A DNA stretch of 23,822 bases from a virus, in the IMG/VR virus record IMGVR_UViG_3300006750_000084, positions 1-23,822 of that record, one strand, 5' to 3'. This document shows, one piece after another, positions 1 to 9,520 of the stretch. The stretch's first letter is position 1. Each line of letters opens with the position of its first letter. The position numbers were made by a program, and so were the translations under genes. Below the pieces are notes generated by a model that saw only the letters and a program-made list of their open reading frames with translations, was not told where the DNA came from and ran no database searches.

Positions 1-114
1 AAAACATTAATGATTTTAACAAGAGTCCTTCCTCTTGCATTTCTTGGAGGAGCAATGGTAAATGGAGAACTCCCAGTCCTATTACCAGGGGGAGAAGAAG
101 GGGTGGATACTTAA
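1..114 (+). CDS. 3' end of a plus-strand gene (partial, unknown)
   Basis: Frame 1 is open from the first base of the window to a TAA at 112-114, giving 37 codons. The peptide has a hydrophobic stretch, including the run RVLPLAFLGGAMV, and ends in GGEEGVDT. If the gene begins upstream of the window this is its C-terminus; an in-frame ATG at 10 would make it a 34-aa peptide. It points toward the minus-strand operon, so it would be the end of a plus-strand operon meeting it head-on. Nothing in so short a piece names a function. A chance open frame is possible, but the overlap with another plausible plus-strand ORF starting at 62 fits phage gene packing. Confidence 0.4.
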   Translation, partial: KTLMILTRVLPLAFLGGAMVNGELPVLLPGGEEGVDT

Positions 115-220
115 ACTTTACACCAAGGGTGGTAAGGAGATACAACCTCATAATCCACCCTTGATGCTGTACCTAACTCAGTACTATGGAGGTAGCATAT
201 TAGTTAGGTATGCTTGGTAA
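62..220 (+). CDS. small hypothetical protein, 52 aa
   Basis: The ORF opens with ATG at 62 and ends with TAA at 218-220. A GGAGGAG ribosome-binding site lies about 9 bases upstream at 46-52. The peptide begins MENSQSYYQGEKKGW and is rich in Tyr, Lys and Gly with few hydrophobic runs, which looks like a soluble small phage protein. It overlaps the end of the preceding plus-strand frame and runs about 20 bases into the 3' end of the convergent minus-strand gene at 200-406. No family is recognised. The ribosome-binding site is the main support; conservation data would decide. Confidence 0.4.
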   Translation: MENSQSYYQGEKKGWILKLYTKGGKEIQPHNPPLMLYLTQYYGGSILVRYAW

Positions 221-406
221 TACTATGGTGTCATAGAAATGACATCCATCTGGCTGACATTCCTTGCCAGCCATTTTCTTGTCTATATGATATGTTGTGA
301 TAGATTTACCTTCCCCATGAGTAAACTTAAATATTAATCCACTACATATTCCTTTATTCCAGTTGGAACAATGTTTCTGCGCCAACCTCTTTTTGCTAAC
401 TGCCAT
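200..406 (-). CDS. small cysteine-containing phage protein, 68 aa
   Basis: This is the last gene of the minus-strand operon. It encodes 68 residues with spaced cysteines (C13, C21, C50, C55) in the contexts KHCSNWNKGIC and KECQPDGCHFYD, then a VLP motif near the end. I recall short phage proteins with this pattern (a Cys pair around Trp/Gly, then C-x4-C-x-Y/F and a C-terminal VLP). Their function is unknown; paired cysteines suggest metal binding or disulfides. No strong Shine-Dalgarno precedes the ATG at 406. A competing ORF at 334-519 on the same strand in another frame lacks any recognisable pattern, so this frame is preferred. Its stop overlaps the convergent plus-strand ORF ending at 220. 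Confidence 0.5.
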   Translation of the reverse strand: MAVSKKRLAQKHCSNWNKGICSGLIFKFTHGEGKSITTYHIDKKMAGKECQPDGCHFYDTIVLPSIPN

Positions 407-559
407 AATTTAAGCGGAACATCCTTGGTGCCTTTGTACCTGGAAAGATACAGAGAAGGGAAGGTCGGGAAAGTGAATGCCCCGCTATGTTTAATTTTCA
501 ACAAAGTCTCCGCATACATCTATAGAATTTATGAATAAATTCTTGTAAATCTCAATTTC

Positions 560-576
560 AATTTTTACTAAAAATT
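560..576 (-). terminator. weak AT-only hairpin after the 72-aa gene
   Basis: AATTTTT (560-566) pairs with AAAAATT (570-576) around a 3-base loop, just downstream of the minus-strand gene ending at 586. An all-AT stem is weak, so this may be a poor terminator or chance in an AT-rich gap. The stretch 407-585 otherwise shows no convincing gene. Confidence 0.2.
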
Positions 577-585
577 TGAAAATGA

Positions 586-804
586 TTAATCACAGTCACT
601 TCCTTTACACCCTGCAACCATAGTCCCTTGAGCCTTCTGGATTTCCTTTCCTATATCATTATTATCCATTCTTTCAAGAAAAGATGTAACTTTATCCATT
701 TCAAGCATGTCGTCATTTGAATAACATTCTACTCTATAACATTTAAGAGCTCTTATAACCCTGTCATAGTCTCTGTCATTTAAAGTTACTTTTTTCATTT
801 CCAT
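586..804 (-). CDS. hypothetical protein, 72 aa
   Basis: The protein is small, mostly charged and probably helical (MEMKKVTLNDRDYDRV...), with a cysteine-bearing tail (AGCKGSDCD). Translation starts at ATG 804, which overlaps the TAA of the HNH gene as TAATG. A good AAAGGAGG site lies upstream, so the start is firm. It lies at the distal end of the replication operon. No family is recognised; similar short helical proteins of unknown role are common beside phage replication genes. The two cysteines spaced C-x4-C at the C-terminus might bind a metal, but that is inference only. Confidence 0.6.
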   Translation of the reverse strand: MEMKKVTLNDRDYDRVIRALKCYRVECYSNDDMLEMDKVTSFLERMDNNDIGKEIQKAQGTMVAGCKGSDCD

Positions 805-1328
805 TAGTATCTTCCTCCTTTTGCCAATTTCCTCATAATATATTCTCTTACTTCCATAGTTTGCTTTTTAACCCAATCTATTAAACTTAAGTAATCTTCT
901 TCATCAAGAGGACCTTTACGTGTATTACATGTTTTGCAAATAAGCTGAAGATTTTCAATTACAGAATCTCCTCCCTTTGAAAGGGGGATAATATGGTCAC
1001 ATGCTATTGTCCTGATATTTAATTGTTTTTCACAATATTTGCACTCTTTGCCGTAGTTTTCTAAAAATAATTCTTTTAACTCATCTAAAGTTATGTTGAA
1101 TATTACATCGTTCTCTTCAGAACGCTTTCTAAGGTTACTTTTAAGGATTGATATTTTCCTCATCAAGCGTTTGTATGCCTGGTTCCAATATGTTCGATGT
1201 ATTGGAACAAGCTTTTCTCTAAAGCTGCCCTTAAAAGTTGGGGATACACACGGACTTATCATAACCGCATAGGTAGGGTTAATCCGAGGTAAGGATGATA
1301 GTGCATATCCCCAAGGCTTTATTTCCAA
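804..1328 (-). CDS. HNH endonuclease
   Basis: A DNA endonuclease of the HNH superfamily with structural zinc. The C-terminal half (about residues 94-140) holds the full motif: CKYC (C96, C99), the catalytic DH pair in ACDHIIPLSKGG (D111, H112), N126, and CKTCN (C131, C134, N135). The first 90 residues are basic and probably bind DNA. The longest reading starts at a TTG (1328) inside the end of the upstream gene without a clear ribosome-binding site; an ATG at residue 23 (1262) is an alternative. It may be a free-standing homing endonuclease or a phage nuclease for replication, recombination or packaging. It sits after Gp157 and the primase-helicase and is not next to the terminase genes. No intron or split gene is seen around it. 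Confidence 0.85.
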   Translation of the reverse strand: MEIKPWGYALSSLPRINPTYAVMISPCVSPTFKGSFREKLVPIHRTYWNQAYKRLMRKISILKSNLRKRSEENDVIFNITLDELKELFLENYGKECKYCEKQLNIRTIACDHIIPLSKGGDSVIENLQLICKTCNTRKGPLDEEDYLSLIDWVKKQTMEVREYIMRKLAKGGRY

Positions 1329-1522
1329 TTAAACATAAACTGAACCGCTATTGAGGCTCTCCATGCTGACATAATCAGATGAATGTATGAATTTGTAACA
1401 TCTTCTCCGAGTTCAATCCCGCAAGATATTAGGTTGAATAAAGTTAATTGATATCCTTTCAAGCTAATATTTTCTACGTGATCATTGTATATATTAAATT
1501 TTACAATGTCACGTATACTCAT
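1319..1522 (-). CDS. hypothetical protein, 67 aa
   Basis: A short protein with alternating hydrophobic and polar segments, such as YQLTLFNLISCGIELG and SAWRASIAVQFMFNW, probably a small globular or membrane-associated fold. It starts at ATG 1522, overlapping the stop of the Gp157 gene by four bases (ATGA), so translation is probably coupled. The upstream AAGAAG is a weak ribosome-binding site. Its stop overlaps the first codons of the HNH reading frame. No family recognised. Its fixed place between Gp157 and HNH suggests it belongs to the replication operon. Confidence 0.55.
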   Translation of the reverse strand: MSIRDIVKFNIYNDHVENISLKGYQLTLFNLISCGIELGEDVTNSYIHLIMSAWRASIAVQFMFNWK

Positions 1523-2046
1523 GATCTTCTTACCCTTTTAAGACGTTCTATAGAAAGTCCTTTTATTAACTTTCCATTTTTATGAGCATTCATTGCATCT
1601 TTTCTTGCTTTACTTTTGTCAATAGATTCACGGACTTCAACCTTCTTGTATTTATCATCAACAAGGGATTGGTCAACTTTTACTTCTCCATAAGTTTCAT
1701 ATAACTTATATCTAGCAATATCAGTTTCCCAAATTCCGTCCTCATCTCCTAGCTTTTCAATTACAAAAGGAAGTAATTTCTGGTTAAACCAGTCTTTTGT
1801 TCGAGAAAGTGCTCTTCTCCTTGTTTTTAACCGATCTTCTTCCTCTTTTAGTGCCTCTATAGAAGCGTCCATTACAAATTCACGCTTTCTTACTTCTATT
1901 AGAAATTCATCTATACTTTCAATTTTCTGTTGAATTTCTAACTGAAGCGTGTTTCTTGTATCACGTTCATGCTGAGACTCTACTTGACCTTCTATGGTTT
2001 CTTCCAGTTCAAGTAACTGCTTGACTATCTCCTGCGTTGTCGCCAT
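1519..2046 (-). CDS. Gp157-family phage protein
   Basis: The layout matches the Siphovirus Gp157 family. A long charged coiled coil fills residues 1-90, followed by a helix ending in a short region (ARYKLYETYGEVKVDQ), then a basic segment with SLVDDKYKK and ending KGLSIERLKRVRRS. In known members the second half carries the equivalent 'P..y' and 'I..alk.G..i.G' pattern. Gp157 was linked to phage resistance in Streptococcus thermophilus phages and is usually found next to recombination and ssDNA-binding genes, as here; its molecular role is unclear. The ATG at 2046 has GAGGAG 8 bases upstream. The gene overlaps the 3' end of the primase-helicase by 38 bases. Confidence 0.75.
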   Translation of the reverse strand: MATTQEIVKQLLELEETIEGQVESQHERDTRNTLQLEIQQKIESIDEFLIEVRKREFVMDASIEALKEEEDRLKTRRRALSRTKDWFNQKLLPFVIEKLGDEDGIWETDIARYKLYETYGEVKVDQSLVDDKYKKVEVRESIDKSKARKDAMNAHKNGKLIKGLSIERLKRVRRS

Positions 2047-3835
2047 CGTATGTTCTCCTCATTCTAAATGATGGTTGCCATTTAAGGTCGATTTCCCAGA
2101 GGTCACCGTCAGAGTTCTTTAATAACTTGATAGTTTTGTAAGGACTCTTTGCATTTCCCTGAAGAATCATGACCTTCCTTGAAGCATTTTCGATTGCTCC
2201 ACTTCCTTTCCCAGAATACAGGTCAAGTATCTCTGTCCTGCTATATTCCCTTGATGTTTGACTAATCTGTATGATTATAATATCAAGGTTTACAGCTAAA
2301 CTGGATAGCTGATGACATATGTACCTGATAGTCTCATATTCACCTCTCATCCCTTTTGGGGGTTCTACAAGGTCAATATAATCTACAATTACACATGCAG
2401 GCTGCAATTCACGTATTTTATCAGCAATCTGATTTATAGTAGGTGCAACTGTTTGGACAACAATATGATCAAGTTCATTTTTATGAAATTTGAACATTTC
2501 TTTTACATTTCTACCTATTTGTTCTTTTGACTGTCCAGTTAGAATCTGAAGATTCCTTCTGTGCATCATCCAGCTTGACAGTTCAAGACTAAGATATAAT
2601 GTAGATATTTGTTCATCCTTGGCTATTACATCTTCTAAGGCATGATATGCTAATGCAATATTCTGAGCTAATGTTGTTTTATTTGAACCAGTTGGTCCGC
2701 ATATGGTAACAAGTTCGCCTGGATATATTACAGTATCGACGTTTCCTAGTCCAAATAATTTGGCTAAGTCTATTTTCCTGCCAGTAAAATCAGCAGTGAG
2801 CCTATACTCTAACTCTTCTTGCATATCACGTGCACTATATGTTTCAACAAGATAGTCCTTATGTTTATAGTAAATGCATCGTGGTTTACAATGTTTTTCC
2901 ATTAATGGATCATGACAACTGTACTTATACCCGCGATTGTATACACTTTCTACCTTATCTAGTACTATCTCTTCTTTCATGGAGTTCTTATTCCACCATA
3001 GCAATGCAGCCTTGGTGGCATCAGAGTGTATTCCATTTCTCCTGAAATGTGATGCTATTCTTAAGATGTAATCATTTCTCTGACCATGTTCTGGTCCTTG
3101 TGAATACATTTCCTGAACACAAGGAACGACATTCCTAGGTTCAGTTACATTAGTAAATGCTCTTACACTTGGGATATTAGTTGTTACATGGCTTTTTAAT
3201 TCCCCATTCCCTTCACCAATTATGTCAAGATGGTTCATTTCCAAGTTAGTAAACCTTGTCCTGGCATATTCCTTTATACTCTCAGCTGCCATATTATTTA
3301 ATTCACTGTGAGTTAATGGAATCTTGTACAGAGAACTCTTTTGATTCAGAGTATGCTCAAGCCTGTATATCCCTGTTCTAGAATATATAGATGCATCAAG
3401 GTCGTCCCATATTCCAAGGATTGTTCTTTTAACGATGAATGGTAAATCCTTGGACTTTGCAGGAAATGTAAATATTCCTGCATCTACAATTATATGATAA
3501 CCGGTACCACTGAACATTGGCATTATTGCTTCTTCGGGGGCTCCCATATCAACCAAATCCATTACAATGGATCGAGCAATATCTAGTGTATGTTCATCGC
3601 TGTTGTCTTTCCTATCAATGTCGATAGGTACAACATCAATGCTCCTTGAGCCAAAGAAGTTCTTTAAGGTACCGTTTGCCTTTACATATTCAACTGCCTC
3701 ATTATCATAGACATATGTTGACCTGTAAATAGGCATAGTCTCACCTTCATTGTGAATGTACTCATGAATATCTCTTCCAAGTTCCATAAGAAGCCCTCTG
3801 TTATGAGGGCCTCCTATGGCTATCTCGCAGTACAT
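2009..3835 (-). CDS. primase-helicase (AEP primase fused to DnaB-like helicase)
   Basis: A bifunctional replication protein of 608 aa. Residues about 35-200 look like an archaeo-eukaryotic primase: the metal-binding pair in VPIDIDRK (D72, D74), the nucleotide-binding SGTGYHI (109-115), and a later D147 with R158. Residues 235-330 form a helical and cysteine-bearing linker (C307, C316, C320), resembling a PriCT or zinc region. Residues 350-590 are a RecA-fold DnaB/Gp4-type helicase: Walker A GPTGSNKTT (380-388), Walker B CVIVDYIDLV (D485), and IIIQISQ (about 520-526) as the sensor strand. It would unwind DNA and make primers at the phage fork. The first ATG (3835) follows the upstream stop as TAAATG but lacks a ribosome-binding site; M17 (3787) has an AGGAGG separated from it by a hairpin. 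Confidence 0.9.
   Translation of the reverse strand: MYCEIAIGGPHNRGLLMELGRDIHEYIHNEGETMPIYRSTYVYDNEAVEYVKANGTLKNFFGSRSIDVVPIDIDRKDNSDEHTLDIARSIVMDLVDMGAPEEAIMPMFSGTGYHIIVDAGIFTFPAKSKDLPFIVKRTILGIWDDLDASIYSRTGIYRLEHTLNQKSSLYKIPLTHSELNNMAAESIKEYARTRFTNLEMNHLDIIGEGNGELKSHVTTNIPSVRAFTNVTEPRNVVPCVQEMYSQGPEHGQRNDYILRIASHFRRNGIHSDATKAALLWWNKNSMKEEIVLDKVESVYNRGYKYSCHDPLMEKHCKPRCIYYKHKDYLVETYSARDMQEELEYRLTADFTGRKIDLAKLFGLGNVDTVIYPGELVTICGPTGSNKTTLAQNIALAYHALEDVIAKDEQISTLYLSLELSSWMMHRRNLQILTGQSKEQIGRNVKEMFKFHKNELDHIVVQTVAPTINQIADKIRELQPACVIVDYIDLVEPPKGMRGEYETIRYICHQLSSLAVNLDIIIIQISQTSREYSRTEILDLYSGKGSGAIENASRKVMILQGNAKSPYKTIKLLKNSDGDLWEIDLKWQPSFRMRRTYDGDNAGDSQAVT
3793..3815 (-). promoter_or_regulatory. 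ribosome-binding site plus hairpin before an alternative primase start
   Basis: On the minus strand AGGAGG (3815-3810) is followed by the hairpin GCCCTC-TGTTAT-GAGGGC as read on the plus strand (3793-3810). The ATG for M17 of the primase-helicase follows at 3787. Folding would bring AGGAGG to about six bases from that ATG. Similar hairpin-bridged initiation sites are known in T4. This is an inference from layout only. Confidence 0.3.
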
Positions 3836-4564
3836 TTAACTAGATGAGAATGGGAGTCTATCCTGCTTAGATGTTGCATCTTTAATACCAGGTTTATCGT
3901 ATTCTTTAGATGCGGTAACTACTACAGGCCGTCTATTTACCGGAGTAACAACTATTTCTGATGCATTCCATGGTCCTTCATCATCATTATCCGGTGGAAA
4001 GTACTCGTTTATAATGCCCTTAGCTTTTAGGAATTTTATATAATCCTTAAACTTAGTAACGGCCGTATGATCAGTACTATCTGTTAACCGGGGATCTACT
4101 CTGGTGAAGGCTTTACCTTCTCCCGTGTCTTTGTTTACTACCCATTCTTTGTAAACATAGACTAAGTATTTATACTCAGGGTCCACGTCTTTGGGAACAG
4201 CAAAGTGAGCATTTAATGTTGCAGCAAGATCAGTAATCTCACCATCATCATCTACCCAATTTCCATTCTTATCAACGCCGCCTTTCCAGCCGGTAGCATC
4301 TACTAAATACGTAATTCTGTTTAAAAGCGTATTCTTTTTAATGGTACCGTCAGGATTTTTATCAAAGCTACCAAATATTCTCATATTCTGGGGATACTGA
4401 CTTCCTTCAGTCTGGAGTTCTATTTCCAGATACAGGTCAGCCCAGTCATACTCACTGGTTTTATCCCTAAATTCACGAATACAAGCACTTTGATAACCTA
4501 ACCAAGGAGCTTTGCTTTTAAATGAGCGTGCTCCTTCTGTTGCTTGTGGTCTGTAATGTGCCAT
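3836..4564 (-). CDS. probable single-stranded DNA-binding protein
   Basis: A soluble 242-aa protein with a beta-rich centre (YDWADLYLEIELQTEG, NMRIFGSFDKNPDG, then NTLLNRITYLVDATGW), an acidic Pro/Asp-rich segment, and a short C-terminus ending DRLPFSSS. The N-terminal half recalls phage DUF669-type ssDNA-binding proteins, where an OB-like core is followed by an 'LN.l...tG' helix and a disordered tail. I am not certain of the family. The position between a probable annealing protein and the primase-helicase supports a role in coating single-stranded DNA during replication or recombination. The start at ATG 4564 has a strong AAGGAGG 7 bases upstream. It could also be a recombination mediator. 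Confidence 0.55.
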   Translation of the reverse strand: MAHYRPQATEGARSFKSKAPWLGYQSACIREFRDKTSEYDWADLYLEIELQTEGSQYPQNMRIFGSFDKNPDGTIKKNTLLNRITYLVDATGWKGGVDKNGNWVDDDGEITDLAATLNAHFAVPKDVDPEYKYLVYVYKEWVVNKDTGEGKAFTRVDPRLTDSTDHTAVTKFKDYIKFLKAKGIINEYFPPDNDDEGPWNASEIVVTPVNRRPVVVTASKEYDKPGIKDATSKQDRLPFSSS

Positions 4565-4576
4565 AGTGACACCTCC

Positions 4577-4963
4577 TTATCTAGCCAGTGCCTTGTTAGG
4601 TGTAGAATGCCCTTGTTGATGAATAGCATTTTTCACCTCTTCAGCTGACGCAATAGACTCTTCAGTCCCAAAGCCAGCCATCGCTAGACAACGGCCTACA
4701 GCCGAAGTTTCGCAGTTTTCCAGAGCACTAGTCTGGTTAATTTGACTACTCCCATGAGATTCATGTGCGAGGCCTGTACAATAAGTTTCAGGATGCTCGT
4801 TTGGATTCGTAAAACAATATGCTTTTACTATCCAATCACCATCTTTGTAGTCAACAAGTTCTGTTCTAATGCAACCATAAGGATATGCATTGTAAAAGGC
4901 AACAATTCTGTCCTTTACCATTACATATTCTTTGCCATGAATGTTTACCGTAGGTGTTTTCAT
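4577..4963 (-). CDS. probable single-strand annealing / recombination protein
   Basis: A 128-aa protein whose centre carries the phage-typical block NQTSALENCETSAVGRCLA (residues about 77-95), followed by MAGFGTEESIASAEEV. That block is a hallmark of small ERF/Sak/Rad52-like annealing proteins and their relatives: a Thr-Ser helix, an 'E.CETSA.GRAL' helix, a Gly turn, then 'IAS.EEV'. The N-terminal strand-rich part (VNIHGKEYVMVKDRIVAFYN) fits the same family. It would anneal complementary single strands during recombination-linked replication, with the ssDNA-binding protein made just downstream. At 128 aa it is short for a full recombinase, so a related accessory role is possible. The ATG at 4963 overlaps the preceding stop as TAATG and has GGAGG 8 bases upstream. 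Confidence 0.6.
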   Translation of the reverse strand: MKTPTVNIHGKEYVMVKDRIVAFYNAYPYGCIRTELVDYKDGDWIVKAYCFTNPNEHPETYCTGLAHESHGSSQINQTSALENCETSAVGRCLAMAGFGTEESIASAEEVKNAIHQQGHSTPNKALAR

Positions 4964-5187
4964 TACCTATTCCTCCAATCATTTTTACTCTGATACTCTT
5001 TTGGTATTTTAATACCTTTAACTCCTGAATAAACAAACCATCCATTTTGATTTCTTTCAAAGAGTTCTCTTTTATCCTTAATATATGATGGATCATTCTC
5101 ACCATTGTAAGGCCATTTCCAATTTCTGATATAATAAGATTTTTGATCTGATTGATATCGTTCTTTCGGACCAGTTTTCTTTTTCAT
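4963..5187 (-). CDS. hypothetical protein, 74 aa
   Basis: A small, very polar and aromatic protein (five Trp, many Lys and Tyr) that begins with the basic run MKKKTGPKERY and contains RNWKWPYNG and NQNGWFVYSG. Such a charged aromatic composition fits a small nucleic-acid-binding protein, but no family is recognised. Its ATG (5187) follows TTGGAG at a 4-base spacing. It is the first gene after the structured gap downstream of the E1-like gene and is translationally linked to the annealing protein by a TAATG overlap. It therefore belongs to the replication block rather than to the ubiquitin-like block. Confidence 0.55.
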   Translation of the reverse strand: MKKKTGPKERYQSDQKSYYIRNWKWPYNGENDPSYIKDKRELFERNQNGWFVYSGVKGIKIPKEYQSKNDWRNR

Positions 5188-5205
5188 ACTACTCCAATTA
5201 TAAAT

Positions 5206-5284
5206 CTGCGTGACTAGAAAGGAGGAACATACCGTTTCATTTGATTATAATAACAACAGGGTCATTACAATACCAGCCACGCAG
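5206..5284 (-). promoter_or_regulatory. candidate structured RNA leader (12-bp long-range stem)
   Basis: As minus-strand RNA, CUGCGUGGCUGG (5284-5273) pairs over all 12 positions with CUAGUCACGCAG (5217-5206), two of them G-U wobbles, closing a 55-base loop. In DNA those two positions are mismatched, which favours an RNA role. It fills most of the gap between the E1-like gene and the 74-aa gene and ends about 4 bases before that gene's own leader sequence. It may control the downstream replication genes or mark a processing site. Confidence 0.3.
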
Positions 5285-5292
5285 CTTTATAT

Positions 5293-6009
5293 CTATTTAG
5301 GAACAATAAGACCTTTCTTCTTAATTTGTAAAGGCACCAAACCTATCCAAATATACTCATTAAAAGGCCTCTTTCCAAGTACATTAAATACTTGGTTAAC
5401 TCCAAAACCAGCTGAAATTGATGAAGTAAATATTGTATGCTTCATAGTACACGGAGCATCTTCAATATCCTTTGACGGCTTCCAGTAATTCTCGTAAGCA
5501 TCCATATTATATGGAGTTACAGTAATCACTTCAAGTGCCAAAGCGTCCATTCTTATGTCAATAAAGAATGCTGTATTGCTAATACAAGGGTTGCTTTCTA
5601 TATACACTTTCCATGCATTATAAGCATCTATCCTTACTTCCATATTATCTGGACAAACTATAACTTTTCTCAAGTCATATTTATTTCCCATTCCAGTTTT
5701 GTCATCCCACATATAACTCCACCATTCACCAAAATTATCAGCATGAATGTTTGGATTATACTCTCTTGCTTGTATGACAGCTGCTTCAGCTTTGTTCGTA
5801 TCTAAGAACATTGTGGGATACAAACTTGATGATAAATTATGTTCCTCTAATTTATCATGGTCATAAACGACTACATGTTTAAATCCCATAATAGACAGCA
5901 AGGGGACAACGGATGAACCGATGCCCCCTGCTCCTATCACATGAACTTCATTGAGATACGCCTGGTCTATCAGGTCTTTGTTCCGTAAAAACCTATTCGG
6001 CTGGTCCAC
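5293..6009 (-). CDS. ThiF/E1-like ubiquitin-activating enzyme
   Basis: A 238-aa adenylating enzyme of the ThiF/MoeB/E1 superfamily, expected to adenylate the C-terminus of a beta-grasp protein and pass it to a cysteine. Visible motifs: an N-terminal NRFLRN with the arginines typical of MoeB; nucleotide loop GAGGIGS (26-32); acidic pair VYDHDKL (D50, D52); N58; lysine in NKAEAA (K73); the CPDNMEVR block (D121, N122, R126); and a probable catalytic cysteine C187 in APCTMKHTIFTSS. The usual NLxRQ arginine is replaced by serine (NLSSSLY). There is no zinc CxxC pair, rhodanese or ThiS fusion. The start is GTG with AGGAG upstream, overlapping the JAB gene by 17 bases. With the JAB, E2-like and Ubl genes it completes a conjugation cassette. 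Confidence 0.9.
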   Translation of the reverse strand: MDQPNRFLRNKDLIDQAYLNEVHVIGAGGIGSSVVPLLSIMGFKHVVVYDHDKLEEHNLSSSLYPTMFLDTNKAEAAVIQAREYNPNIHADNFGEWWSYMWDDKTGMGNKYDLRKVIVCPDNMEVRIDAYNAWKVYIESNPCISNTAFFIDIRMDALALEVITVTPYNMDAYENYWKPSKDIEDAPCTMKHTIFTSSISAGFGVNQVFNVLGKRPFNEYIWIGLVPLQIKKKGLIVPK

Positions 6010-6799
6010 TAGGCTCTCCTAGGAAATACTTGAGCGGGTCAATCCCATACTTTTTCATTTCAGCATCGAATTTTCCTTTTGTCAACTTTCCAGTTTCAAA
6101 CTCTTCATAGACATCATCAACTGCTTGCATTTCAGCCCATGTTAAGCTCTTAGACATTCCATCAGAATAGTTATAACTATTATAGTTGTTATACCTACCA
6201 TAGCCGTCATAATGACCACCCCAAGGTATAGTCCGTTGAGGGGTCTTTTTAGCTTCAAGAGCTTTAGCCTTCTTACTAGCCTTTTGAATAGTATCAGCTT
6301 CTTTCTTCCAGATAGTATTCTGATCAAACACCGGCTCTTCATAAACAATTTTGTCTACTTCAGACGCCCGTGGAAATCCATACTGATCCTTATAACTGAA
6401 CTCAAAGGCATAGTCATTGTCATGGCTGACAACTAAACTCCCGTAAAATCCTTTCACCGGAGCCATTTCCTTAAGAGTATCATCATCAGTACCACTATGG
6501 TATGCACTCATATTATGATGGCTATGAATTAGTCCCATCATACATCTACCAAGTTCAGGCATGGTCTCTAGCGTCTTCTTCAAGATTTTTGCTAAATCCT
6601 TTGCCTCATACTCAGTAGCTGCACTACTACCAAGGTCTAACGGCTGAAAATGTTTCAGCTCAACACTCTTTGGATACCCACTTTTTAACAGCTTAAAGTT
6701 ATACCACGCTGGCCCGCTCCATTCCATCTTCGGAAAACGGCTCAACAAATATCTCACCTTGTGGTGCATCTCTAGTGGTATCGTTAATTGTAATTTCAC
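5993..6799 (-). CDS. JAB/MPN (JAMM) metallo-isopeptidase
   Basis: A 268-aa protein whose first 150 residues are a JAB domain: an opening strand (VKLQLTIPL), the catalytic glutamate in KMEWSG (E26), then the exact zinc signature H-x-H-x7-S-x2-D in IHSHHNMSAYHSGTD (H92, H94, S102, D105). Members cleave bonds after the C-terminal glycine of ubiquitin-like proteins, maturing them or releasing conjugates. The rest is a charged linker, a Tyr/Gly/Asn-rich stretch (about 194-213) and a helical tail. The start chosen is GTG at 6799, because AAGGAGG lies 7 bases upstream and the JAB strand begins there; a longer frame would start 29 codons earlier without such a site. It overlaps the E2-like gene by 101 bases and the E1 gene by 17. 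Confidence 0.92.
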   Translation of the reverse strand: MKLQLTIPLEMHHKVRYLLSRFPKMEWSGPAWYNFKLLKSGYPKSVELKHFQPLDLGSSAATEYEAKDLAKILKKTLETMPELGRCMMGLIHSHHNMSAYHSGTDDDTLKEMAPVKGFYGSLVVSHDNDYAFEFSYKDQYGFPRASEVDKIVYEEPVFDQNTIWKKEADTIQKASKKAKALEAKKTPQRTIPWGGHYDGYGRYNNYNSYNYSDGMSKSLTWAEMQAVDDVYEEFETGKLTKGKFDAEMKKYGIDPLKYFLGEPSGPAE

Positions 6800-8684
6800 G
6801 AATTTTCCTCCTTGTTTTCTCGGTTTCGCGAACAAGGTTCTCAAGATATGTTCTATAGCCATTAAGATGCAAAAGTTTAATAGCACTATCCAGATATATT
6901 TCTTCTGGAAACAATGTACTAAATCTTCTGTAACCTAAACGTTTCTTGTCAACCTTTACCTTCTTGATATTAATATCAAGTGCAAACGATTTAAATTCAT
7001 GCCCTTCATAAGTAGTAAAGCCAGCCTGTCTTGCAAAACTAGTTATTCCCCCTGATAGAAGTGTTAAACACTTTTTCAGGTTATTAAAGAACCAATCAGT
7101 TTGCATATACCATTCTATCTTTTCTAAATAAGGCGTTAAACCATCATCAGTTTCACACATGATGTCTCTATATCCATTTACCCGGTACTTCCATTCCCTG
7201 GATAATTTAAGATATCTTCTCCAATCTCTGTCTGTCATGGCACGAATACAATAACATGCCCACTCAACTTGAATCTGCTGGATACTACTCAGCCAATATT
7301 GTGCATTTTCCATTCTGAGATATGCATTGCCCATAGGGCCAACTGTCTGATATATCCTAAGTTCAGTTGCACCAGGAACATCATCTTGGTAATCAATATA
7401 TTTACCAATCTCACTTTTATGTCTTATATCGTTACAACTGCCATTAGCAATTGAATCAAGAAGATCAAGTCGTATATTGCCTAAGCAATCATCGTTATGA
7501 CATGCATCACTACCAAATCCATTTATACGAAAATTTGGAAACATTTCTTGCCATTCATTGACTGCCCTTTGTATTCCTTCAATATTCAGTGCATGTCTAA
7601 TAGTATCATTCCATGTAACATCCATATCATACATCATAGAACCAATGAGCTGACTTGCTTCAAGCGTAGTAAGCTTAGTATACTCTGCTACACGTTTTAC
7701 AAGAGGTATCCATACTGTACTCATACATCTAATACCGGTCAATACTTCATCAGGTATTATATGATCGCCATCATCATGATCACGTATACGTCCTTGATGA
7801 GCTCCTTGCAGAATAATGTAATCGTCAAGTTTCATATCTCTAAGTGTTCCACCTTGACTTTCCATTGATCTCCAAGTCTGGTTTATGTCCCAATAAGCAC
7901 CATTTCTATTCCAGATGCTTATAAATTGTTTACAACCACCAAGAAAATCAGTTATCTGACCTTTGTATTGAGAGTTATTCATCTGTCCTTCTCTATCTCC
8001 CCAACAAGCATTTCCATTGCTTATATGAGGATGTATAGCCAAGTCCATGAATTTTCTACCCTCTTTATCATCGGTTGATGTAAAGGGCTGACCAGGACAT
8101 CTTAATTCCAAATCCTCATCAGTCATAAACAGAGTATGCGTCCTTGGTTGTACAAATGAAACTCTAGCAGTATTGCTATCAGCTACTGCTCTTCTATGTC
8201 TTACAACAGCCTGTAAATCTGGACTCATGCGTAATTCAACCCAGGTTTCCCCAAATCTATACACTCTTCGTCCTCTCATCTTCGGGGTTCCAAGATTTAA
8301 CTGCATTATCCTTGGAACAGTCACATGAATATATCTTTTACCATCATCAGACTCTTCAATATCTGCATATTGTGCATCTGCTCCGGCATTCCCCACAGGA
8401 ACACGTGAAGAAGTAAAGAATACTCTTATCTTACTCGTATCATTCCAATCATCAATACCAAGCAAAGCCTTTACTGCATTTACTTCAAGTAATTGTTGAT
8501 CTAATGTTCTGCCATTTTCAATACCAGGAAAGAAATATAACATCATGTTATGTACTGGTACTTCAACACTACGAAATGGTCCCTGATCTTCATCAGGATA
8601 ATGTCTATACGGTGTATTATTATGTATAGTCATTGTTTCAACATTCCTAAATGTTGAACCTAACTTAGTATTATGCTTTTCCAT
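6699..8684 (-). CDS. large E2-like conjugating protein (UBC active-site motif) with a long novel C-terminal region
   Basis: A 661-aa protein. Around residue 218 it has IHPHISNGNACWG, the classic E2 pattern of HP-x-[IV]-x2-NG-x2-C, with candidate catalytic C227 (H218, H220 nearby). It is preceded by a strand-rich region (about 140-217) and followed by the expected 'l.d.L....' helix and an aromatic turn (GAYWDINQ, about 262-269). This fits a UBC-fold ubiquitin-like carrier enzyme taking the tag from E1 C187. The remaining ~390 residues are helical and aromatic with a Cys/His patch (C395, H396, C400) but no RING pair; I recognise no family there. The second of two ATGs (8684) is chosen because AAGGAGG sits 4 bases away; the first is nearly touching it. 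The gene lies between Ubl and JAB. Confidence 0.65.
   Translation of the reverse strand: MEKHNTKLGSTFRNVETMTIHNNTPYRHYPDEDQGPFRSVEVPVHNMMLYFFPGIENGRTLDQQLLEVNAVKALLGIDDWNDTSKIRVFFTSSRVPVGNAGADAQYADIEESDDGKRYIHVTVPRIMQLNLGTPKMRGRRVYRFGETWVELRMSPDLQAVVRHRRAVADSNTARVSFVQPRTHTLFMTDEDLELRCPGQPFTSTDDKEGRKFMDLAIHPHISNGNACWGDREGQMNNSQYKGQITDFLGGCKQFISIWNRNGAYWDINQTWRSMESQGGTLRDMKLDDYIILQGAHQGRIRDHDDGDHIIPDEVLTGIRCMSTVWIPLVKRVAEYTKLTTLEASQLIGSMMYDMDVTWNDTIRHALNIEGIQRAVNEWQEMFPNFRINGFGSDACHNDDCLGNIRLDLLDSIANGSCNDIRHKSEIGKYIDYQDDVPGATELRIYQTVGPMGNAYLRMENAQYWLSSIQQIQVEWACYCIRAMTDRDWRRYLKLSREWKYRVNGYRDIMCETDDGLTPYLEKIEWYMQTDWFFNNLKKCLTLLSGGITSFARQAGFTTYEGHEFKSFALDINIKKVKVDKKRLGYRRFSTLFPEEIYLDSAIKLLHLNGYRTYLENLVRETEKTRRKIREITINDTTRDAPQGEIFVEPFSEDGMERASVV
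6807..6813 (-). promoter_or_regulatory. ribosome-binding site deciding the JAB start
   Basis: AAGGAGG on the minus strand, 7 bases before the GTG at 6799 and inside the coding sequence of the E2-like gene. It fixes the start of the isopeptidase and shows that the long gene overlap is real initiation space. Confidence 0.85.
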
Positions 8685-8701
8685 CATTCCTCCTTAACTA
8701 A

Positions 8702-8813
8702 ATGCTAGAGGTTGTTTAAATACTCACCTCAATCATTGGGGAATCCATCTAGATATGTATAGATGGGCCAAGATTTGCACGGTATACCCTTCGTTCAGTA
8801 TCCCTCTAAGCAT
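8702..8813 (-). promoter_or_regulatory. candidate structured RNA leader of the E2-like gene
   Basis: The 150-base gap between the Ubl stop and the E2-like start has inverted repeats. ATGCTAGAGG (8702-8711) pairs with CCTCTAAGCAT (8803-8813) with one bulged base. Inside lies a perfect 7-bp hairpin, CCATCTA (8745-8751) with TAGATGG (8760-8766). The closing stem ends about 6 bases before the ribosome-binding site. There is no U-run, so it is not an obvious terminator. It may tune the amount of enzyme relative to the Ubl upstream. Confidence 0.3.
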
Positions 8814-8833
8814 CACAGTTCAAATCGAAGTGG

Positions 8834-9043
8834 TTAGTCCCCGGACTTCGTTGACTTTTTCTGAAACGATACGAGATCACCGTCTCTCAGCACTGCTGAG
8901 GGAACAGCCTCGTTATCATTAACAAAAATAGCCACGCCTTCCAATGGGAGACTGTTCGATTGTGCAATCTCCGCGGGAGTGTTAGCTTCCATTTCAGCTA
9001 ACTGGCCACCAGTATGAAAACTAGTGTACATTATGTTGGCCAT
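8834..9043 (-). CDS. small beta-grasp ubiquitin-like protein (ThiS/MoaD-like)
   Basis: A 69-aa protein with the order expected of a beta-grasp fold: a beta hairpin (IMYTSFHTGGQLAEM), a helix (TPAEIAQSNSL), then a strand and the ThiS/MoaD-like block VAIFVNDNEAV followed by VLRDGDLVSF. The 'VN...' and 'L.DGD.V' signatures are typical of these families and of Ubls coded beside JAB and E1 genes. It ends STKSGD, so the tail has one glycine followed by Asp rather than an exposed GG; the JAB peptidase might remove the Asp. It would be the tag activated by the E1-like protein and carried by the E2-like protein. The ATG at 9043 has AAGGAGG 7 bases upstream. No thiamine or molybdopterin genes are near, so a metabolic sulfur carrier is less likely. 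Confidence 0.68.
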   Translation of the reverse strand: MANIMYTSFHTGGQLAEMEANTPAEIAQSNSLPLEGVAIFVNDNEAVPSAVLRDGDLVSFQKKSTKSGD

Positions 9044-9055
9044 AAGGAGTCCTCC

Positions 9056-9520
9056 TTACTGTTTACTGGCAATATTACCAAACGACGCAACTAGCTGTGC
9101 CAGTGACTGTTGATGCGCCGGATGTGGTACTGCATTACCTGCAGCCCACTGATATACGGTTGTGTAATGACAGCCGATTATCTTCGCTAAATCGAATGTG
9201 CTTAATTGCCCATTCTTTGTCAAGTGCCGGATAATAGCCGTTGTCTCTTCTAACTTCTTTTCCCTATTTGTATGGGCAAAATGATTAGGAGAGTGTCGAC
9301 CATCGACCAACACTTCTGGTACCACAGGTACCTTTTCTTCTGTTATTACCGCTTCCTGGGCTTCCATTTTATGTACAATATTTATACACTGGAATCCAGG
9401 AAACTGGCTTACTGTTACAAGAGCACTGCCAGAAGTATCCTCCATGAGGGTACTAACATAGCTATTGAGCTCGCTGCCTTTAGCAAACCACTTTGTGAAA
9501 CTATGAGTAGCTGATTCCAT
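9056..9520 (-). CDS. helix-turn-helix protein
   Basis: A 154-aa protein. The C-terminal third (about 94-146) has a helix-turn-helix of the Cro/transposase type: QLSTFDLAKIIGCHYTTVYQW, shown here by its ends QLSTFDLAKI and TTVYQWAAGN, then a further helix. The first 90 residues carry strand-like segments (SALVTVSQFPGFQCINIV) and a Glu/Val/Pro linker, matching no family I know. It probably binds DNA. Lying directly before the Ubl gene (its stop overlaps the Ubl ribosome-binding site) it may regulate the cassette or act in replication initiation. The ATG at 9520 overlaps the previous stop as TAATG with AAAGGAG upstream. Confidence 0.6.
   Translation of the reverse strand: MESATHSFTKWFAKGSELNSYVSTLMEDTSGSALVTVSQFPGFQCINIVHKMEAQEAVITEEKVPVVPEVLVDGRHSPNHFAHTNREKKLEETTAIIRHLTKNGQLSTFDLAKIIGCHYTTVYQWAAGNAVPHPAHQQSLAQLVASFGNIASKQ

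Follow-up and report, generated by a model that had tools for sequence, protein, structure and literature searches.

The locus and its genes

The window analysed here is the whole stretch of 23,822 nucleotides of IMGVR_UViG_3300006750_000084, a 23.8-kb record from a virus of bacteria. A near-identical phage (~99.7% identity) is present in IMG/VR contigs from 3300025114, 3300025112 and 3300038433. The plus strand carries structural genes (terminase, portal, major head protein), and the minus strand carries an early module, which includes a four-gene ubiquitin-like (Ubl) cassette. The genes of the minus strand discussed here are as follows.

9056..9520, minus strand: HTH-like protein, 154 aa, directly upstream of the tag gene; weak HTH matches
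8834..9043, minus strand: Ubl tag, 69 aa, predicted beta-grasp; C-terminus K-S-T-K-S67-G68-D69, predicted mature end after G68
6699..8687, minus strand: E2-like protein, 662 aa; predicted UBC-like domain at about 40-292 with H219-P-H221...C228-W-G230
5993..6799, minus strand: JAMM/JAB peptidase, 268 aa, GTG start; E26, H92, H94, S102, D105
5293..6009, minus strand: ThiF/E1-like adenylating enzyme, 238 aa, GTG start; G26-x-G28-G29, C187
4577..4963, minus strand: 128-aa protein; phrog_11717 (4e-33), PHROG function unknown
3836..4564, minus strand: SSB-like protein g242, a conserved partner found in 114 loci (family alignment)
2009..3835, minus strand: primase-helicase with DnaB-like C-terminal domain; PHROG DnaB-like (9e-34), Pfam DnaB_C and PriCT_1
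1519..2046, minus strand: Gp157/Mu Gam-like protein; phrog_253 (6e-8)
804..1328, minus strand: HNH/endonuclease VII-like protein; Pfam HNH (4.5e-14), phrog_1035 (1e-21)

A previous sequence-only reading of this DNA had described the four consecutive cassette genes on the minus strand. That observation is confirmed: all four ORFs are present, each behind a good Shine-Dalgarno sequence (AAGGAGG for tag and E2, AGGAGG for JAB, AGGAG for E1). Two of the sizes were refined. The JAB start is placed at the GTG at 6799, behind AGGAGG, which gives a protein of 268 aa rather than the 297-aa ORF and means that the JAB and E2 genes share 101 nt, and the E2-like protein has 662 aa (661 from the second ATG). 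The JAB and E1 genes overlap by 17 nt.

The cassette was also said to lie in a phage replication operon, and this is borne out well beyond the window. It sits between the HTH gene and the SSAP/SSB/primase-helicase genes, and not among tail-assembly genes with NlpC/P60. In the window it is followed by the 128-aa protein, the SSB-like protein, the primase-helicase, Gp157 and the HNH/endonuclease VII, and throughout its relatives annealing/Sak4, SSB-like and primase-helicase genes lie downstream; in most of them the slot of the 128-aa protein is occupied by a Sak4-like ssDNA annealing protein (phrog_124). On the other side, the 154-aa HTH-like gene is not conserved outside this phage, its copies among the loci being near-identical only.

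The SSB-like protein g242 has no family match. Several of its relatives terminate in DDMPF/DELPF, a tip motif as in bacterial SSB, and these ends point to an unannotated phage SSB-like family.

The tag protein

Searched as single sequences against Pfam, PHROGs and NCBIfam, the tag had a sub-threshold ThiS match (E=0.09) and the E2-like protein had none, and family profiles were therefore needed. The AlphaFold2 model of the tag is confident (pLDDT 89), with the order strand-strand-helix-strands, and its best structure matches in VIA are MoaD and TtuB (both Z 8.9), followed by SAMP2 (7.7) and SAMP1. On this model the 69-aa tag is a single-domain beta-grasp protein, and the earlier assignment of that fold withstood the attempt to refute it. 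A match of the tag profile to PDB 8vd6 (E 1e-12 over the whole chain) was rejected because no single stretch passed, the best being 28 residues of a 'CAP repeat' chain.

The C-terminus of the tag family has the form K(V)xSG followed by a short variable tail. S67 and G68 are found in 43/43 family members, and the S-G is followed by one residue in 51 of 79 sequences, by 2-19 residues in 22 and by none in six. Because there is usually an extra residue after the S-G, and long extensions in crAss-like phages, this is likely to be a processing site, with JAB as the likely processing peptidase. JAB is retained even at loci where S-G is already the end of the tag, which suggests that it probably also removes conjugated tags.

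Given that MoaD and TtuB are sulfur carriers, and that the E1 of crAss phages is labelled 'thiamine biosynthesis', the cassette might instead carry out sulfur-carrier chemistry of the ThiS/MoaD/TtuB type, supplying thiocarboxylate sulfur for modification of phage tRNA or nucleotides. We consider this very unlikely. The E2-like protein has an invariant Cys with an HPH motif, for which we know of no role in sulfur transfer; there is no rhodanese, sulfurtransferase or sulfur-metabolism gene among the annotated neighbours; and the tag precursors need processing.

The E2-like protein

The mean pairwise identity across the E2 family is only 19%, which makes its fixed residues telling: HPH (H219-P220-H221) is present in 66 of 67 relatives, and C228 and G230 in 67 of 67. 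A small MAFFT alignment had paired a Cys at about position 401 with the Cys of the crAss E2, and this was rejected, since the larger family alignment shows C228 to be invariant.

The structural model has a mean pLDDT of 54 and is poor outside the core, with confident regions at residues ~45-97, 110-180 and 211-260. When residues 40-292 were compared with known structures in VIA, UBE2S led (Z 6.0, 128 residues, rmsd 4.3), and Ube2k, UbcH5A, Ubc13 and Ubc9 also matched; these UBC-fold scores (Z 5-6) are modest. Both HPH and C228 lie inside the matched region. Foldseek with the full 662-aa model gave no E2 match (best E 0.41), probably due to more than half of the model being of low confidence, and a search of PDB sequences with the E2 profile gave no relevant match. 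The models thus support a UBC-like domain in residues 40-292, with modest scores, and the claim of a UBC fold in the large protein was not refuted. The 300-550 residues after the Cys motif are mostly helical, poorly modelled, variable and fast-diverging.

The JAB peptidase and the E1-like enzyme

The exact JAMM signature and the ThiF/E1 with C187 noted from the sequence both stand, with Pfam matches above cut-off and invariant active-site residues. JAB matches Pfam Prok-JAB just over the cut-off (1.5e-5) and has the complete JAMM set, E26 (in EWSG) and H92-x-H94-x7-S102-x2-D105, all five residues of which are invariant in 96-98 sequences. The JAB profile found no relevant match among PDB sequences. 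The C-terminal part of JAB (6045-6300, minus strand) contains a Gly/Tyr/Asn-rich stretch, GGHYDGYGRYNNYNSYNYSDG, which possibly has a role in tag binding or localisation.

E1 matches Pfam ThiF (4.3e-17). C187 is found in 91/91 relatives, and G26, G28, G29, D50, N58, K73, D121 and R126 are likewise invariant in the family. Against PDB, the family profile ranks UBA5 (best) and SUMO E1 ahead of MoeB/ThiF.

The sequence-only reading had offered, as one of its interpretations, that the cassette blocks host Ubl systems. Phages do antagonise host conjugation systems, as Vs.4 does with CBASS (PMC10097602), and the cassette could in principle be a dominant-negative decoy that ties up the host machinery. 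A decoy has no need of its own complete and catalytically invariant E1, E2 and JAMM protease. The cassette brings its own tag and has lost none of its catalytic residues, which speaks against this reading; we regard it as extremely unlikely. What is upheld of that interpretation is a complete cassette in a replication operon with no adjacent effector.

Conservation and gene order

Relatives were collected with the JAB alignment (263 viral contigs) and the E1 alignment (176), the best 80 of each were kept, and the four genes were located in these loci by iterated profiles on their ORFs. More than a hundred phages, marine and gut, have the cassette. Informative loci were defined as distinct non-crAss loci with >2.9 kb upstream of JAB (n=34). 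The order tag-E2-JAB-E1 is fixed in all 34. E2 is present in every one, and the tag is found by profile in 31; the remaining three have an 80-aa ORF in the tag position, ending VKSGR. E1 is found in all 74 loci with room downstream of JAB, and the E2 and JAB genes overlap in 111 of 111. The cassette is thus complete, as had been claimed, with four families, invariant active sites and a constant order, and the case that would have spoken against it, JAB and E1 always occurring without tag and E2, is not what is seen in the loci that are long enough.

The collected loci contain 3,823 distinct ORFs. Within these, HPH..C.G, the JAMM pattern and GxGGxGS are restricted to ORFs of the expected families, and since the three enzyme motifs occur in no other ORF, chance is excluded. 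The short C-terminal K..SG pattern is weaker by itself (25 family ORFs against four others).

The divergence of the four genes correlates mutually and with that of the primase-helicase and SSB-like genes (r 0.71-0.92), which indicates joint inheritance of cassette and replication module. A search of 84,980 bacterial and archaeal genomes gave only one divergent match, in the marine MAG JAHJDR010000254.1 (L152, 1087-3329), with the order E2-ThiF-JAB and an E2-like SHNGHSICTGE; E. coli genomes gave no match. We conclude that the cassette belongs to the phages themselves and forms a conserved core module in a clade of marine phages. The MAG contig also has an integrase-like gene, and appears to be a divergent cellular or mobile relative.

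No description of the complete cassette in phages was found in the open-access literature searched, and an earlier description may exist. ThiF and ubiquitin are not mentioned in the main text of the crAss phage papers checked.

A second lineage in crAss-like and FpV phages

The breadth of the cassette had been underestimated: it is indeed present in this phage, but it is not a one-off, being conserved both in the marine clade and in Crassvirales and the Flavobacterium phages FpV (Fipvunavirus). In the latter two groups the order is the same, and the cassette lies after or near the primase. In the cultured phage crAss001 it consists of four genes, gp79-gp76, ordered as in the marine phages, with the motifs KKIKSG in gp79, HSH...PCTG in gp78, EWSG...HSHNNMATFFSGTD in gp77, and GVGGIG and ICSYKQT in gp76. 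These genes are annotated as hypothetical, metalloprotease or ThiF, with PHROG function unknown.

JAB and ThiF of the marine and crAss/FpV phages are homologous by sequence. The tag profiles of marine and crAss phages align weakly (p 0.0045), and profile-profile comparison of E2 between marine phages, crAss phages and PRTRC gave nothing significant. Because the E2 profiles do not align, a common origin of the E2 families rests on position and motif, together with the predicted fold of the marine family. The two lineages differ in that crAss-like phages have a tag precursor of 150-290 aa, with a long extension after K..SG, whereas the marine tag mostly has one extra residue; and the crAss-like E2 is shorter than the marine one, its motif reads HSH (or QSH), and the Cys lies further away from it. 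The E1 proteins gp76 of crAss001 (L161, 5718-6869) and DAC15_88 (L162, 5711-6721) have an extra N-terminal region of ~100-150 aa, which is absent in marine E1.

Comparison with known systems

Bacteria are known to have complete operons of Ubl, E1, E2 and JAMM genes, for which a role in antiphage defence has lately been described. The cassette resembles PRTRC, Bil, CBASS and TAPI/TAPK, and is not a member of any of those tested.

The ParB-Related ThiF-Related Cassette, PRTRC (NCBIfam TIGR03735/TIGR03736), shows in plasmid operons (loci L151, L153, L154 and L156) exactly the gene order of the phage cassette, Ubl(C)-E2(B)-JAB(A)-ThiF. It also shares a small, free-standing Ubl with a Gly at the C-terminus, a gene of its own for each protein, and a location on a mobile replication-linked element. 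In profile comparison the phage JAB aligns with PRTRC A (p 4e-8) and the phage ThiF with PRTRC ThiF (p 5e-14), and the cassette might therefore be a phage-borne PRTRC operon with its plasmid role. We give this very little weight. None of the PRTRC models reached its cut-off with the phage proteins (ThiF 20.8 against 144.75; A 15.7 against 101.8), and the tag and E2 matched neither the NCBIfam PRTRC models nor, as profiles, PRTRC C and B. No ParB/E/F partners were seen next to the cassette, where the 154-aa neighbour has only weak HTH matches (Pfam, PHROG, NCBIfam). PRTRC B has no upstream His, and TH.N downstream of the Cys, whereas the phage E2 has the classical upstream HPH; and PRTRC belongs to plasmids, whereas the phage cassette is accompanied by Sak4/SSB/primase genes. 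Operon type 6d of Iyer 2006 resembles both PRTRC and the phage cassette in order and composition, and its E2 lacks the conserved upstream His and has a His downstream of the Cys (PMC1779556).

Bil operons (BilABCD) share with the phage the set of Ubl, E1, E2 and JAMM, and the Bil JAMM exposes the C-terminal Gly of the tag (PMC11354881). The proteins themselves differ. The Bil tag BilA is a tandem double Ubl, as against the single 69-aa domain of the phage; the Bil E2 has the motif Cys-Glu-His-His (PMC11354881), whereas the phage E2 has HPH before C228 and no such His-His after it; and the Bil E1 has two modules, that of the phage being a one-domain ThiF. Bil is moreover a bacterial defence operon, which the phage cassette is not. 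A Bil-like role in superinfection exclusion, by which a resident phage would tag the structural proteins of its competitors, would suit the shared enzyme set, but we consider it improbable. There is no temperate signature, with no integrase in eight related records (which may be fragments), the position of the cassette is that of a conserved core, and PADLOC finds a generic E1 domain only. A temperate-phage moron was rejected on the same integrase result.

Type II CBASS (Cap2, Cap3 JAB) has the E1/E2/JAB chemistry in common with the phage cassette, and a single C-terminal Gly is enough for its conjugation (PMC10097602). Cap2 is a fused E1-E2, whereas in the phage E1 and E2 are separate genes with their own beta-grasp tag. 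No CD-NTase or effector was found among the replication-operon genes scanned (Pfam, PHROG), and the matches in PADLOC were confined to generic E1 regions and domains. The idea of a defence effector was rejected on the PADLOC result, in agreement with the sequence-only reading, which had seen none adjacent.

The tail-assembly proteins TAPI (Ubl) and TAPK (JAB) of lambda/T1 provide another phage-borne Ubl with a JAB, and a Gly-terminated Ubl with a cleavable C-terminal extension (PMC1779556). They are encoded by tail-assembly genes without E1 or E2, whereas the phage cassette has both and lies in a replication operon.

Proposed mechanism and targets

The cassette is very likely to be conjugation machinery. 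Our preferred reading, to which we give a probability of roughly 0.7, is that it forms a ubiquitin-like conjugation pathway that is owned by the phage, is reversible and is expressed along with the replication-recombination genes; we infer each of the reactions in both statements. JAB would first clip the residue or residues after the S-G of the tag precursor. The exposed glycine would then be adenylated by ThiF/E1, probably passing onto Cys187 as a thioester, and the tag would next be handed to the E2-like protein at Cys228, with the HPH motif placing it. E2 would attach it to the target at a lysine or another amine, and JAB would take it off again. Since no E3 is visible, the target may be chosen by the long variable C-terminal region of E2 or by an unrecognised partner.

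The cassette is inherited with replication genes, and the target we favour is therefore the phage replication-recombination complex (Sak4/annealing, SSB-like, primase-helicase). The control of DNA replication by SUMO and ubiquitin provides an analogy. Drawn from neighbourhood and analogy, this is the most likely target, and we put it forward tentatively. We suggest with more hesitation that lytic phages, including the dominant gut Crassvirales, may use SUMO-like reversible tagging of their own replication-recombination complex, separate from the modification of PCNA/SSB in eukaryotes.

The same machinery could be aimed at host proteins, with host enzymes or defence proteins being tagged to redirect or disarm them. 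The E2 C-terminal region, long, variable and fast-evolving beside a fixed active site, would suit a module that tracks host targets, and it is on account of this region that we retain them as candidates; its fast divergence suits them equally. Bacterial Ubl systems are also known to act in phage-host conflict (PMC10097602). Against this, the cassette is embedded in and co-diverges with the replication module, not with variable anti-defence genes, and its retention over deep divergence, in two groups of phages, is what one would expect of a core function. Host targets are in our view unlikely.

The cassette belongs to the phage, forms a conserved core of its replication module and is found again in cultured crAss001; it has the look of a central control system of the virus. 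If it does conjugate, then lytic phages use ubiquitin-like tagging as an ordinary tool, several PHROG families of 'unknown function' gain a role, and the label 'thiamine biosynthesis' on crAss genes is wrong. The target is testable in the B. intestinalis/crAss001 laboratory system.

Minor observations

The cassette is tightly packed except for a gap of 146 nt (8688-8833) between the tag and E2 genes. Such a gap is also seen in many relatives, and is a possible regulatory RNA or promoter; it has no Rfam match, and no Rfam RNA was found in the window. A near-identical 46.7-kb phage contig (L160) has at 1-8182, on the minus strand, a gene whose product is at least 2,727 aa long and which adjoins tail and internal virion genes.
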